This document shows, in pieces, positions 15,059-20,872 of a DNA stretch of 39,528 nucleotides; the stretch's first letter is position 1; every line of letters begins with the position of its first letter. Source of the DNA: Planctomycetaceae bacterium (GTDB taxonomy: Bacteria > Planctomycetota > Planctomycetia > Pirellulales > Pirellulaceae); NCBI GenBank assembly GCA_007694185.1, contig RECD01000187.1, forward strand, positions 1 to 39,528, in the 5' to 3' direction. The notes beneath the pieces are model-generated. The model did no database searches and had not been told where the DNA came from. It saw only the letters and a program-made list of their open reading frames with translations. A program made the translations under genes and the position numbers.

Positions 15059-18000
15059 ATGAATGCCACAAAGTCGCACCCGGTTTCTCAATTCGCGCCC
15101 CGGTCGCGGGCCCGCCACGGTCGGGGCGTTTCGTTCGGTTGCCGACAACGGACGGCGACACGGGCCAGTATGATCGCTTCGGCTTTGGCGGTGGTGCTCG
15201 TGACCGATTTGGTAGCCCAGGAACCGATACCGCAGGACGGGCCACAGTCAACCTTGTCCGCCCCTGTGGGCGCGGCGGTGGCAGCGGACGCGGCGGCGGG
15301 ACCTGGACCAGACGGCAAAGTCGATGACGGCAAGGTCGATGACGACAAGGTCGATTTCGCCAGTCAGATTCGGCCGCTGCTGTCGGACGCCTGTTTCGCC
15401 TGCCATGGTCCCGACGCCGCGCATCGCGAAGCGGACTTGAGGCTCGACCTTGCCGTCGGTGACGCGGCTTCACCGGTTGGCGGAGCGATCGTACCGGGCG
15501 ATTTGGCGACGAGCGAATTGTGGCATCGGATCAACAGCGACGATCCGGACTTGGTCATGCCGCCACCACACACCGGCAAACGACTGGACGACCAGGCGAT
15601 CGACTTGATCGGTCGCTGGATCGAGCAGGGTGCCGATTTTGCCGAACACTGGGCCTTCGTCCCGCCGCGAAAGGCCGAGTTGCCAGATCGGGCGGCCTGG
15701 GGCGAGTATCACGATTGGCCGTCGGGAACGATCGACGCCTGGGTGCTCGACGCGATGCTCCGTCAAGGCCTATCTCCGTCGCCCGCCGCCGACCGGCAAA
15801 CCCTGATCCGGCGGGTTTATCTCGATCTGATCGGCCTGCCGCCCGAACCGGAGGAGGTCGAGCGGTTTGTCGCGGACCCTTCCCCCAACGCCTACGAACA
15901 GCTCGTCGACCGACTGCTCGAATCGGTCCATCACGGCGAGCGTTGGGGCCGCGTTTGGTTGGACGCCGCTCGTTACGCGGACAGCGACGGGTTCGAGAAG
16001 GACAAACCTCGGTCGGTTTGGTTTTACCGCGACTGGGTCGTTCGGGCACTCAACGAAGACCTTCCTTATGACCAATTCCTGATCAAGCAGATCGCGGGCG
16101 ATCGCTTGCCGGGAGCAACTCAGGACGATTTCGTTGCGACCGGCTTCCTCCGCAATTCGATGATCAACGAAGAGGGTGGCGTCGACCCGGAGCAATTTCG
16201 GATGGAAGCGATGTTCGACCGCATGGACGCGATCGGCAAGTCGATGCTGGGGCTGACCGTGCAATGCGCCCAGTGCCACACGCACAAGTACGACCCGCTG
16301 TCACACGAAGATTACTACGCCCTGTTCGCGCTGCTCAACAATTGCCACGAAGCGAGCCGGACGGTCTACACACCCGAACAACAGACGAAGCGGGAAGCGG
16401 TGTTGGATCGAATCGACGGCTTGATTCGCGAGCGCCTGGACGCGGACGACGATTGGTTGTCGCGGTGGGAGAAGTGGGAGGTGGCCATTCGCCAGACGCG
16501 GGTCAGTCCCTGGCAGCCGATCGAGTTGGCGTTCATCCCGGAGACGATCGGGGGGCAGAAGTATCTGCCCCAGGACGACGGCAGTTACTTGGCAGCCGGC
16601 TACGCCCCGACGAAATTCAACCCGACCGCAGAGGTCACGCTGGCGACGGCCGAACCGATCACCGCGGTGCGATTGGAAATGCTGTCCGACCCCAATTTGC
16701 CACTCGGCGGGCCGGGACGATCGGTCGACGGGACATGGGCCTTGAGCGAATTCGAACTGCAAGTCCTACGCACGGCCGACGATGGGCAGCAGCACTGGGA
16801 GAAAGCGGCTTGGTCGGGTGCCGTCGCGACCATCGATTTACCCGTAACGCCATTGGGCCCACGGTACGCGGACAAATCGGATACGCCCAGGACACTCGGA
16901 CCGATCGGCTTGGCGATCGACGGTGATCCCAACACGGCCTGGCACGGGGATGCGGGGCCGGGCCGGCGAAACGAACCGCAAACCGCGATGTTCGTTTTGG
17001 CCGAACCGATTCCTCCATCGGGAGATCAGCCGCTGCGACTGCGGGTGGCGCTCAGGCAGAACCATGGAGGCTGGAACAGCGATGACAACCAAACCCACAA
17101 TCTTGGCCGATTCCGCGTGTCGGTCACCAACGACCCCCAACCTGCGATCGCGCCGCTGCCGCCACGAGACCTGGCGGAGTTGGAACTGCCGATGGAACGC
17201 CGCTCGCCGCAGCGGACCCGGGAACTGGTCCGGCGGTTTGCGGAGCAGGACGCGTTGCTGCACGATTTAATCGAACCTTTGGAAGCGGCCTGGCGAGACC
17301 ATCCGGAGGGAACGTCCCAATTGGTGTTGCTCGAACGGGAACGGCCACGCGTCACGCACAGGTTGGAACGGGGCGATTTCTTGAGTCCCCGCGAAGCGAT
17401 CACCCCCGGCGTGCCGGCCTGGTTGGGCGGCGAAGTCGCATCGGCCGACGCGTCGGATCGCCTACCCGAGCGGCTCGATCTGGCCCGCTGGGTCGCCAGC
17501 CCCACCAACCCGTTGACGGCACGATCGATCGTCAATCGGTTCTGGCAGGAATACTTCGGGACCGGAATCGTCGCGACAAGTGACGACCTAGGCTTGCAGG
17601 GTGATCCTCCCTCGCACCCCGAATTGCTCGATTCCCTCGCGGCCGATTTCATGGCCGACGGTTGGAGCATGAAGGCGCTGCATCGCCAGATCGTCTTGTC
17701 CGCTACCTATCGCCAGGACTCGGCCGTTACCCCCGAGCGGTTGGCTCGCGACCCAGAGAATCGCTGGCTATCGCGAGGCTCACGCGTTCGAGTTCCGGCC
17801 GAAACGCTGCGGGACCTCGTGTTGTCCGCTGCGGGGCTGCTCGACCGCACCGTCGGCGGCCCGCCGGTCTACCCGCTCGTCCCCGAGTTTTTGTTCGTGC
17901 CCCCGGCCAGTTACGGCCCGAAAAGTTGGGGGCCGATCGAGGCGTCCGGAGGATACCGACGGGCACTGTATGCGTTCCGATTCCGTTCTGTCCCCTTTCC

Positions 18001-18505
18001 CGTACTCGAAACCTTTGACGCACCCAACGGCGATGTCGCCTGCGTGCGGCGTTCGATTTCGAGCACGCCCTTGCAGGCCCTCGTGACGCTGAACGAACCG
18101 GTTTTCGTCGCCGCGGCCCGCGGGGTGGCCCGGCGAGTGATACCGCTCGCCGCGTCGAACGCCGGCGGGGATGACGCGGCGATCGATCAGGCGTTCATGC
18201 GATTGATCAGTCGCCTTCCTGAGGAAACCGAGCGCCAGGTGCTGCGGCAATTGCTCCATGACCAGCGAAAGCGATATGCCGAGGACCCGGCGGCGGCAGC
18301 CGAACTCGCAGGCCACTTTGCCGTAGCGGACGTTGAAAACGCGGACGGCAACGGTGCCGCGGGCGGCGCGGAGGCTGACCAGGGTGAAAACGTCACGGGA
18401 GAACGATCCGGCGAGGAGCCGACCTTCGATGCGGCCGAGCTCGCGGCGTGGACGCTCGTCTGTCGCGTCATCCTGAACCTCGACGAGACGGTCACCCGAC
18501 CCTGA
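15059..18505 (+). CDS. Planctomycete cytochrome C / DUF1549 / DUF1553 protein
   Basis: A 1148-residue secreted protein with the multi-domain architecture typical of Planctomycetota. After a long basic n-region, a hydrophobic signal segment lies at about 38-52 (MIASALAVVLVTDLVAQ). A planctomycete cytochrome C domain follows, with a haem-binding CFACH at 112-116. DUF1549 spans roughly 225-430 and contains LIRRVYLDLIGLPP, WLDAARYADSDG and a second CxxCH, CAQCH at 403-407 in the family motif CAQCHTHKYDP. DUF1553 spans roughly 800-1070 (LARWVASPTNPLTARSIVNR, DLGLQGDPPSHPELLD). The middle, about 500-700, looks like a beta-rich carbohydrate-binding-type region. Function is not established; a periplasmic redox role linked to polysaccharides has been suggested for the family. 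A short DGKVDD repeat precedes the cytochrome domain. Confidence 0.93.
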   Translation: MNATKSHPVSQFAPRSRARHGRGVSFGCRQRTATRASMIASALAVVLVTDLVAQEPIPQDGPQSTLSAPVGAAVAADAAAGPGPDGKVDDGKVDDDKVDFASQIRPLLSDACFACHGPDAAHREADLRLDLAVGDAASPVGGAIVPGDLATSELWHRINSDDPDLVMPPPHTGKRLDDQAIDLIGRWIEQGADFAEHWAFVPPRKAELPDRAAWGEYHDWPSGTIDAWVLDAMLRQGLSPSPAADRQTLIRRVYLDLIGLPPEPEEVERFVADPSPNAYEQLVDRLLESVHHGERWGRVWLDAARYADSDGFEKDKPRSVWFYRDWVVRALNEDLPYDQFLIKQIAGDRLPGATQDDFVATGFLRNSMINEEGGVDPEQFRMEAMFDRMDAIGKSMLGLTVQCAQCHTHKYDPLSHEDYYALFALLNNCHEASRTVYTPEQQTKREAVLDRIDGLIRERLDADDDWLSRWEKWEVAIRQTRVSPWQPIELAFIPETIGGQKYLPQDDGSYLAAGYAPTKFNPTAEVTLATAEPITAVRLEMLSDPNLPLGGPGRSVDGTWALSEFELQVLRTADDGQQHWEKAAWSGAVATIDLPVTPLGPRYADKSDTPRTLGPIGLAIDGDPNTAWHGDAGPGRRNEPQTAMFVLAEPIPPSGDQPLRLRVALRQNHGGWNSDDNQTHNLGRFRVSVTNDPQPAIAPLPPRDLAELELPMERRSPQRTRELVRRFAEQDALLHDLIEPLEAAWRDHPEGTSQLVLLERERPRVTHRLERGDFLSPREAITPGVPAWLGGEVASADASDRLPERLDLARWVASPTNPLTARSIVNRFWQEYFGTGIVATSDDLGLQGDPPSHPELLDSLAADFMADGWSMKALHRQIVLSATYRQDSAVTPERLARDPENRWLSRGSRVRVPAETLRDLVLSAAGLLDRTVGGPPVYPLVPEFLFVPPASYGPKSWGPIEASGGYRRALYAFRFRSVPFPVLETFDAPNGDVACVRRSISSTPLQALVTLNEPVFVAAARGVARRVIPLAASNAGGDDAAIDQAFMRLISRLPEETERQVLRQLLHDQRKRYAEDPAAAAELAGHFAVADVENADGNGAAGGAEADQGENVTGERSGEEPTFDAAELAAWTLVCRVILNLDETVTRP
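15310..15357 (+). repeat. Short in-frame tandem repeat encoding D-(G/D)-K-V-D units
   Basis: Three near-identical 15-base units (gatgacggcaaggtc-like) encode GKVD-DGKVD-DDKVD at about residues 86-99 of the cytochrome C/DUF1549 protein. They form an acidic linker between the signal segment and the cytochrome domain and could vary in copy number. Confidence 0.7.
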
Positions 18506-18524: not shown

Positions 18525-20093
18525 TCAGTCTGCTGCGGCGGCGGGGCCGTTCGGTCCGCTTCGCGGAAGCGATTCACAATAGGCTTCGACCGCGGCGATC
18601 GCGGCGATCACGTCTTCGCGGGTCGTGCGGTGATTGACCACCGCGGCTCGCAAGGCATGTCGACCATCGACCCGGGTGATCGACAGGATCGGCCCACCGC
18701 GTTGTTGAAAATGGATCGCGATCGCCTCGTTCACAGCCATCGGATCAAGGGAACTGAAGCGGGACGGGTCAGCCGTGAAGCAGCAGACGTTGGAGATCAC
18801 GGGCGAAACCAAACGGAGCCATGCAGACCGCTCGATCTGGTCCCCCATCAACGCCGCCAGGTGGCAATTTCGCGAGACGGTTTCCCCCAAAACGGCCTCA
18901 CCGTAGGCCTGGAGCGTCGCCCAAACCTTGAGCGCCCGAAAGCCGCGCGACAGATCGATGCCGTAGTCACAGAACCAGGGCCCGCCCGCACCCAATCCGG
19001 TGTCTCGCGGACGCAGGTAGGGCGATTCGGACGAAAACGTGGCGCGGTGGAGTTCCCCGTCGCGGAGAAGCGCGATGCCACAGTCGTATTGCACCGACAT
19101 CCATTTGTGGAAATCGAACGCCAGTGAATCGGCCCGATCGATCCCCGCGACCAGGTCGCGGTAGGGGGGATCGGCGATCCGCAGCCAGGCGCCGAAGGCC
19201 CCGTCGACATGCAGCCAAAGCTGCTGCTCTGCGCAGATATCGGCGATCGCGTTCAACGGGTCGTGGCTGCCGGTGTCGACCGAACCGGACGTGCCAATGA
19301 CGCAAAACGGCACGCCGCCGGATTGCCGGTCGCTGCGGATCCGCTCGACCAGTTGCCTCGGGCACATGCCGAACGTTCGTGGAGAACGAGGGACCAGCCG
19401 CAGGTTGTCCGAACCGAGTCCGAGCAACTCGATCGCCTTGATGGTCGCTTGGTGGACCCCTTCCACGGCGTAGGCGGTGAGTTGGGGTGCGTCCCGAACT
19501 CCGGTCCGGCGAACGGTCGCCCCGAGCGCCCGTTGCCGGGCGACAGCCAAGCCGATCAGCGTCGCCTGCGAAGTGCCGGTGACCAGCACGCCGCTAGCAC
19601 CGGCTGGCAAACCGAATCGGTCTCGGCACCAGGCGATCACTTCCCGTTCGATGTAGACCGCGCCGTGGTTTCGCCCGCCGCAGTTGCTGTTCATCGTCGC
19701 CGCGACCATCTCCGCCAACAGCCCGGCCACCGTCCCCGTACCCTGAACCCAACCGAAAAAGGCGGGATGAGTGTTCCCCGAGCCGTAAGGGAGGATCTCA
19801 CGCACCATCTTGTCGGCGGTCGCCTCGAGTCCGATCGCCTGGCCGGATTCCTCGAGGGCGGTAGCCCGCATCGCCCCTTCGGGAAACTCCCGCCAAGGCC
19901 GATCGCGGATGTTTTGCAAGTGCTCCAGACACGAATCGAGCAGCTTGTGAGCCACGTCGCGACAGGCTTGCCAATCCTCCGGATCGAGGGAGGGCTGAGT
20001 CTCGGCAGGGTCGTGGGTTCGGCTCACGATGGCTTTCGGCGGCACGGTAGAGGTGGATCGATGGAGCACTGACAACGGACATTGGGAAGGCAT
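18525..20093 (-). CDS. PLP-dependent aromatic-L-amino-acid decarboxylase family protein
   Basis: A 522-residue group II pyridoxal-phosphate decarboxylase, related to aromatic-amino-acid, tyrosine and glutamate decarboxylases. Key residues are visible: GNTHPAFFGW near 106-115, GVLVTGTSQATLIGL at 168-182 (phosphate side), EGVHQATIKA with the ring-stacking His214, HVDGAFGAW with Asp297 for the pyridine nitrogen, and the PLP lysine K330 in FDFHKWM. The enzyme should release CO2 from an amino acid, but the substrate cannot be assigned. I use ATG 20093, which has AAGG upstream. GTG at 20027 (VSRTHDP) is possible since family similarity begins after it. It converges on the end of the DUF1549/DUF1553 gene with only 19 bases between the stops. 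Confidence 0.9.
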   Translation of the reverse strand: MPSQCPLSVLHRSTSTVPPKAIVSRTHDPAETQPSLDPEDWQACRDVAHKLLDSCLEHLQNIRDRPWREFPEGAMRATALEESGQAIGLEATADKMVREILPYGSGNTHPAFFGWVQGTGTVAGLLAEMVAATMNSNCGGRNHGAVYIEREVIAWCRDRFGLPAGASGVLVTGTSQATLIGLAVARQRALGATVRRTGVRDAPQLTAYAVEGVHQATIKAIELLGLGSDNLRLVPRSPRTFGMCPRQLVERIRSDRQSGGVPFCVIGTSGSVDTGSHDPLNAIADICAEQQLWLHVDGAFGAWLRIADPPYRDLVAGIDRADSLAFDFHKWMSVQYDCGIALLRDGELHRATFSSESPYLRPRDTGLGAGGPWFCDYGIDLSRGFRALKVWATLQAYGEAVLGETVSRNCHLAALMGDQIERSAWLRLVSPVISNVCCFTADPSRFSSLDPMAVNEAIAIHFQQRGGPILSITRVDGRHALRAAVVNHRTTREDVIAAIAAVEAYCESLPRSGPNGPAAAAD

Positions 20094-20461
20094 GGCCGGC
20101 CCTTTCCGACCGGACCGTAGCGGCGCAAAACATAGCGGACAGCACGCAAGTGCCACAGGCTTGTTGCCCACAGCGACAAACCGCAGCAGTCGGATTGTTC
20201 CAACGGACTCAACCGGAAACGATCGACCACCTGCGGCCGGTTCACACGGCGAACTGGAGGCGTGGAAAACGCCGGCTACGACGTCGATTCTCGAGATATT
20301 CGAGCGGCCGGGAAGAGCGGTTCATGGTCCCGACGAGGTTGTGAACTTTTAAAGTGGCAGGCACAGTCCCCGTGCCATCCGCCCGCCCGGCTCCCAAAAG
20401 CGTTGCTTTTGGAGGCTCACGGCACACGGTGTGTGCCTACTACTTTGACTTTCGAAACCAT
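20094..20461. other. Intergenic region carrying a repeat element
   Basis: About 370 bases lie between the decarboxylase start and the exbD stop, both on the minus strand. The only structured part is the 96-bp element at 20351-20446, listed separately. The rest (20094-20350) has open frames with no family resemblance. It should hold the decarboxylase promoter, which I cannot locate. Confidence 0.6.
20351..20446. mobile_element. MITE/REP-like element with terminal inverted repeats
   Basis: A 96-bp element with imperfect terminal inverted repeats: AAAGTGGCAGGCACA at 20351-20365, and the complement of 20432-20446 reads AAAGTAGTAGGCACA (13 of 15 match). It contains three hairpins. GGCAC/GTGCC at 20360-20376 and GGCACAC/GTGTGCC at 20421-20437 are placed symmetrically, each 9 bases from its end. 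A central CCAAAAGC/GCTTTTGG lies at 20394-20412. There is no coding capacity. I see no clear target-site duplication and no second copy in the window. The design suggests a short non-autonomous mobile or REP-type repeat. Confidence 0.65.
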
Positions 20462-20872
20462 TCACGGCCTCGGCGGGGCCGATCGACGTGTGGTGACCAG
20501 GGTGATCTGATCGATCCCGGCGTCGCTGGTGTCTTTCAGCAACGGGGCGATGGTCCCGTAGGGAACCGCGGCGTCGACCCGCAACCGGACGGCGGAGATG
20601 TCGCCGAAACGGTCCCGATGCTCGCGGATCCGACGGCCGATCTGCTCGGGCGCGACCACCGCCCCCCCGATCTGATAGGTCCGTTTCGCATCGAGGTGGA
20701 TCGTGAGCCAGCGGGCCGCGGGATCCAGTTTTTCGCCACGGGTCGATGCGGGCAAATCGAGTGGCGGTCGATTCTCGCGCCGAGCCAAATGGCCGGAGAC
20801 GAGGAAAAAGATGATCAACAAAAAAACGACGTCGACCAGCGGCGTCATCGATAGGTTCACACGGTCGTTCAT
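20462..20872 (-). CDS. exbD: ExbD/TolR family biopolymer transport protein
   Basis: A 136-residue ExbD/TolR protein. One N-terminal membrane helix ([19 protein letters not shown], about 9-27) carries the conserved Asp13 used in proton-motive-force coupling, and a periplasmic domain follows. The C-terminal part ([29 protein letters not shown]) is typical of ExbD. It normally works with an ExbB/TolQ partner, and none is encoded nearby. The ATG at 20872 overlaps the tadA stop as ATGA, so translation is probably coupled. An extension of the frame upstream lies inside tadA in another phase and is not real. Assignment to the TonB-type or the Tol-type system is not possible. Confidence 0.9.

Follow-up and report, generated by a model that had tools for sequence, protein, structure and literature searches.

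The window analysed here, a stretch of DNA of 39,528 nucleotides, carries at 20351-20446 a compact palindromic element of 96 bp, and raises the question of what this element is, how far it extends and whether anything still moves it. The first-pass annotation had described imperfect 15-bp terminal repeats, and reading the sequence confirmed that AAAGTGGCAGGCACA (20351-20365) and AAAGTAGTAGGCACA (the reverse strand of 20432-20446) are identical at 13 of 15 positions. The left hairpin (20360-20376, GGCAC...GTGCC), made imperfect by one A.C mismatch, begins at 20360 and the right hairpin (20421-20437, GGCACAC/GTGTGCC) has its last base at 20437; each therefore lies 9 bases off its end of the element, as had been proposed. 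The third, central hairpin was located at 20394-20412, where CCAAAAGC and GCTTTTGG form an 8-bp stem, a pattern expected only 0.02 times by chance in the window when up to three mismatches are allowed. The parts of the element are as follows.

20351-20376, plus strand: left REP unit, with tag GTGG and hairpin GGCACAG-TCC-CCGTGCC, including the one mismatch
20394-20412, no strand assigned: central spacer hairpin CCAAAAGC-GTT-GCTTTTGG, common, with variations, to the longer copies in this genome
20421-20446, minus strand: right REP unit, inverted, with tag GTAG and the perfect hairpin GGCACAC-ACC-GTGTGCC

The element thus combines two inverted REP units within one unit, which is a feature of REPINs. 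By anatomy, two inverted REP hairpins tagged GTAG or GTGG around a spacer, it is a REPIN, so that the earlier description as a MITE or REP-type unit can be narrowed to a REP doublet. The REP end did not recur elsewhere in the window.

Dispersal, which had been suspected, was evident in the genome itself (5.8 Mb in 288 contigs, 99% complete according to its listing). A search with the element returned 23 matches at E<=1, and 15 stretches at E<=1.5e-10 including the window's copy, two of which were partial at about 56-59 bases. A 26-base REP half matched 25 places in this genome as against 0 for the reversed pattern, and a 16-base half 33 places as against 3 for the reversed control. In total, 43 distinct REP units were recognized, 33 of them with an inverted partner, and two copies had the form of compact 68-bp REPINs. 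The genome searches yielded neither a single copy at a conserved place nor a lack of homologues, the two outcomes named beforehand as contrary to a dispersed repeat. When the 14 near-full copies were aligned, the best of the 91 pairs was 90.5% identical over the core and the median was 80%, thus no recent copying is visible among these copies. Separately, contig C199 carries a small REP array (L018, around 1460-1600), with three halves in the same direction at a spacing of 33 bp.

The alignment of the 14 near-full copies also showed that the dispersed unit is longer than 96 bp and spans about 137 bp.

20335-20471, no strand assigned: whole dispersed unit, about 137 bp, delimited by copy alignment, arm scores and DNA fold
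20335-20350, plus strand: left outer arm GAGGTTGTGAACTTTT, matching the consensus arm GAGGCTGTGAATTTTT with two mismatches
20447-20471, minus strand: right outer arm, with consensus GAGGCTGTGAATTTTTGCGAAAGGC when read inward; it contains the stop codon of the ExbD gene and pairs with the left arm

The 96-bp core of the first-pass annotation therefore stands, while its limits at 20351 and 20446 do not, as the inverted arms run on to about 20335 and 20471. In the 14-copy alignment, the right arm equals the left consensus GAGGCTGTGAATTTTT lengthened by GCGAAAGGC. The left arm reached a local score of 12, a score attained by none of 5600 random 35-mers, with a consensus derived from the same copies. 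Of the 28 flanks of the 14 copies, 16 had arm scores exceeding those of 99% of random places at the same loci and 12 did not, in a test that is partly circular since the consensus was taken from the copies scored. In the predicted DNA fold of the window's copy the two arms pair over 12 bp; for the 96 bases alone, the DNA fold gave z -2.7, with 5 of 200 shuffles as good. Across the genus, the 16-base arm matched 11 places in this genome (control 2) as against 5 in four other genomes (control 6), and these five matches, which are at control level, had no REP within the inspected bases. By eye, no arms were found beside the doublets of relatives (23 loci scanned, 15 with doublets; L032 and L275 are one place).

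Tentatively, we suggest that the REPIN of this lineage gained inverted arms of 16-25 bases together with a shared spacer hairpin, that the nested unit of about 137 bp spread whole, and that the transposase was then lost, a history that we regard as possible but less likely than not. If true, REPIN boundaries can grow through capture of flanking palindromes. A composite origin offers another account of the arms. MITEs are short, non-coding elements with terminal inverted repeats, and one that ends in the outer repeats (GAGGCTGTGAA...) and is mobilized by a DDE-type transposase might once have been entered by a REPIN, after which the outer unit spread. Such an origin would agree with the arm scores in 16 of the 28 flanks, with the pairing of the arms in the DNA fold and with the armless doublets of the inspected relatives, but we consider it unlikely: inspection of this genome's copies by eye revealed no target duplication outside the arms, 12 of the 28 flanks lack the arm though the copies retain their REPs, and the two compact 68-bp copies are REPINs. 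Moreover, all eight 24-base arm matches in this genome adjoin REP sequence, and thus no arm-ended transposon was found by a search with the arm sequence.

Two further observations concern the surroundings of individual copies. At L003, half of the central hairpin (AACGCTTTTGGGA) recurs immediately beyond the right REP, as though this copy had undergone rearrangement. Several copies (L002, L005, L006, and L075) are flanked by a further palindrome, approximately CCCGGGTCGCGCAGCGCACCCGGGG, which may be another dispersed repeat. A simple scan did not find CCCGGGTCGCGCAGCGCACCCGGGG in the window.

Two minus-strand genes neighbor the unit, one of them overlapping it.

18525-20171, minus strand: pyridoxal-dependent decarboxylase gene (PF00282, E 2.8e-49), the next minus-strand gene after the unit
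20462-20872, minus strand: ExbD gene (PF02472 ExbD, E 9.7e-20), ending inside the right arm

The gap around the element had been called otherwise featureless, a description that fails because the right arm runs into the 3' end of the ExbD gene, whose TGA stop codon (20464-20462, minus strand) lies within the arm. A frame at 15059-18502 encodes PSCyt1, PSCyt2 and PSD1 domains, which gives the window a planctomycete character. The neighboring deaminase has orthologs in all five genomes of the genus, including this one; in the other four genomes, the few kb fetched around it contained no ExbD gene and no decarboxylase gene, and the gene neighborhood of the unit is unconserved there and offers no empty site for comparison. 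At E<=1e-60, the decarboxylase gene (18525-20171) itself was detected in only two genomes, this one included, among 24 from the relatives' set.

The predicted RNA fold of 20341-20456 (-46.4 kcal/mol, z -3.6) was better than all 200 shuffles, in line with the earlier expectation that the element would fold strongly on transcription, and the window's copy is predicted to form a strong mRNA hairpin at the 3' end of ExbD. Half of the near-full copies (7/14) follow an open frame of more than 240 codons at a distance of no more than 60 bp, and among mechanically derived frames whose stops fall inside the unit the longest has 186 codons. An mRNA role is possible. That the unit exists as an RNA-level element, a transcription terminator or mRNA-stabilizing hairpin selected at gene ends, would fit both the fold and the placement after long frames, yet we hold this to be very improbable, as an Rfam scan of the window gave no family at gathering score, the copies have the tags and doublet arrangement of REPs beside genes of REP-associated HUH tyrosine transposases (RAYTs), features that a terminator could do without, and distant lineages among the named genomes carry the same REP half.

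The REP reads AAAGT[A/G]G[C/T]A followed by a stem of 7 bp and a loop of three bases, which is usually TCC; the layout of the unit is a GTAG or GTGG tag, two bases, stem and loop. Units were gathered by their tag together with the initial two bases of the stem. Six or more of the seven stem positions paired in 33 of 44 tag contexts from this genome and in 274 of 400 from others, compared with 5 of 228 when the sequence was shuffled. Because a pattern containing the stem had been used to retrieve many of the loci from other genomes, the clean figures are those for this genome and the shuffled sequence. The stem sequence varies between genomes while complementarity is kept, with perfect stems including GGCACAC, GGCTCAC, GGCATAC, GGCACTC, GGCACGT, GGCACAT, GGCACGG, GGCACGC, and others, each with its complement. 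Perfect stems made up 19 of 33 in this genome as against 259 of 274 elsewhere. The lower share in this genome was considered as proof of decay and discarded, since many of the loci elsewhere were retrieved with an exact-stem pattern.

The 26-base REP pattern was present in at least 118 stretches of named genomes (L124-L241). Among 93 neighboring REP pairs within 200 bp in these loci, 53 were inverted with tags outward, 39 had the same direction and one had the opposite inverted orientation. The hosts among the matches listed were Planctomycetota, Candidatus Poribacteria, one member of the Verrucomicrobiales and one record named only "Bacterium." The occurrence of a common REP pattern in Candidatus Poribacteria and Planctomycetota suggests transfer or strong conservation between phyla. 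Four IMG/VR contigs labeled as viral (L314-L319) also bear the REP, and may be prophages or mis-binned host DNA.

The first-pass annotation had pointed to a matching transposase of the TnpA-REP type, and such a partner was found beside REPs of this kind in relatives but was not detected in the genome itself. In this genome, there was no match to PF01797 (Y1 transposase) at E<=0.001, and none at E<=10 to P0001, a 112-residue part of the RAYT of G001, a member of the same genus. The relatives' set comprised 40 genomes, this one among them, and PF01797 matches occurred in 29. They were present in all nine other genomes that bear the element at E<=0.001, but their presence alone says little because they were also found in 20 of the remaining 31, a group to which this genome belongs. 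P0001 itself scored 25.2 bits against PF01797 (cut-off 23) and matched NF047646 (REP-associated tyrosine transposase) with E 2.1e-14, below the cut-off of that model. In the PDB it matched only TnpA-REP 4er8 (E 0.041) and one ribosomal protein that is unrelated, plasmid searches gave two weak records (34-36% identity), and a PADLOC search gave no match.

Genes of this RAYT lineage adjoin matching REP doublets in several relatives, one of which belongs to the same genus. In G001, the RAYT frame ends in a TAA stop that shares two bases with the start of a REP; an assembly gap cuts the doublet, and the inverted partner lies beyond the gap. Seven of 30 loci fetched with P0001 had REP units near the RAYT, excluding one lone match with six mismatches: REPs were on both sides in G095, G065, G085, and G037 and on one side in G039, G028 had a divergent REP form on both sides, and G043 was also among the seven. 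Two motifs, NHVH (HUH) and YI..NP (tyrosine), were invariant in the 7 RAYTs aligned. Among 40 loci of RAYT-type genes picked by PF01797 in REP-bearing relatives, a REP adjoined the gene in one (L079), lay about 1.4 kb away in L094 and was farther off in L087 and L096, in a scan with a consensus that divergent REPs would escape. The majority of the RAYT-type genes sampled therefore lack this REP next to them, which counts against the proposed partnership. No match to P0001 was found at E<=1e-5 in the 118 named REP loci listed.

Within the order, P0001 had matches at E<=0.001 in 62 of 146 genomes, and the REP was present in 20 of the 146, this genome included. At E<=1e-15, the RAYT was found in 11 of the 20 REP-bearing genomes as against 19 of the 126 others (both, 11; REP only, 9; RAYT only, 19; neither, 107), giving p 2.3e-4, and 3e-4 to 5e-4 at other thresholds, all uncorrected for phylogeny. 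Three genomes, this one, G035, and G056, have at least 10 REPs each and no match to the RAYT lineage of G001 at E<=1e-15.

Taken together, we conclude with high confidence that the 96-bp element is one copy of a non-autonomous REPIN family served by an HUH-Y1 transposase (IS200/IS605-like), and that it is most likely stranded here. The family looks old and immobile, because searches of this genome detected no RAYT and no two of the 14 copies compared are more than 91% identical. Hence, it is most likely a remnant that no longer moves, and probably a fossil. Continued mobility, by means of a RAYT that the assembly gaps conceal or that gene transfer provides, appears improbable to us: an assembly of 288 contigs could hide a RAYT in a gap, and G001, G003, and G004 of the same genus do have PF01797 matches, but the genome is listed as 99% complete, the PF01797 and P0001 searches found nothing in it, G002 of the genus is likewise without a PF01797 match, and the copies have diverged.

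For this REPIN family, a mechanism may be proposed by analogy with studied REPtrons, in the parts of PMC8266576 and PMC3116915 considered here. On single-stranded DNA, each REP would be bound at its tag and hairpin by a RAYT whose gene lies elsewhere; the enzyme would cut near the REP and would then transfer or copy the doublet to a different extragenic site. The cognate RAYT flanked by a matching REP is found in relatives only. One genus holds a transposase-bearing and an apparently transposase-less member, providing a natural comparison for the fate of REPINs after RAYT loss, which also bears on whether the REP tags truly bound the moving unit. In addition, a RAYT-dependent repeat family is documented in a little-studied phylum.

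Compared with known systems, the element resembles a MITE in being short and non-coding with terminal inverted repeats, but differs in that no target duplication was seen by eye and no parent transposon with matching ends was found. REPtron Sm of Stenotrophomonas maltophilia, as described in the consulted part of PMC8266576, likewise has a perfect-stem REP with a 3-base loop and a GTAG tag, whereas its stem is 8 bp rather than 7 bp and of another sequence, and the present family is described from its sequence. The GTAG-tagged REPs and REPtrons covered by the relevant parts of PMC3733652 and PMC6006769 share the GT[AG]G tag 5' of the hairpin and the position of REPs beside HUH-Y1 transposase genes, while the present REP is common also to Candidatus Poribacteria; the family was not found by name in these parts, supplements aside. 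The sections of PMC3733652 considered report GTAG repeats from the PVC superphylum and state that REPtrons can be lost by deletion, and PMC8049555, in the part considered, models the persistence of REPINs and also brings up the loss of RAYTs. In comparison with the REPINs of PMC3116915, in the portion consulted, the copies described here differ in sharing a spacer hairpin and outer arms and in the lack of a RAYT detected in their own genome, while the two inverted REPs with conserved ends, the spacer, the dispersal and the association with a RAYT lineage are alike in both.
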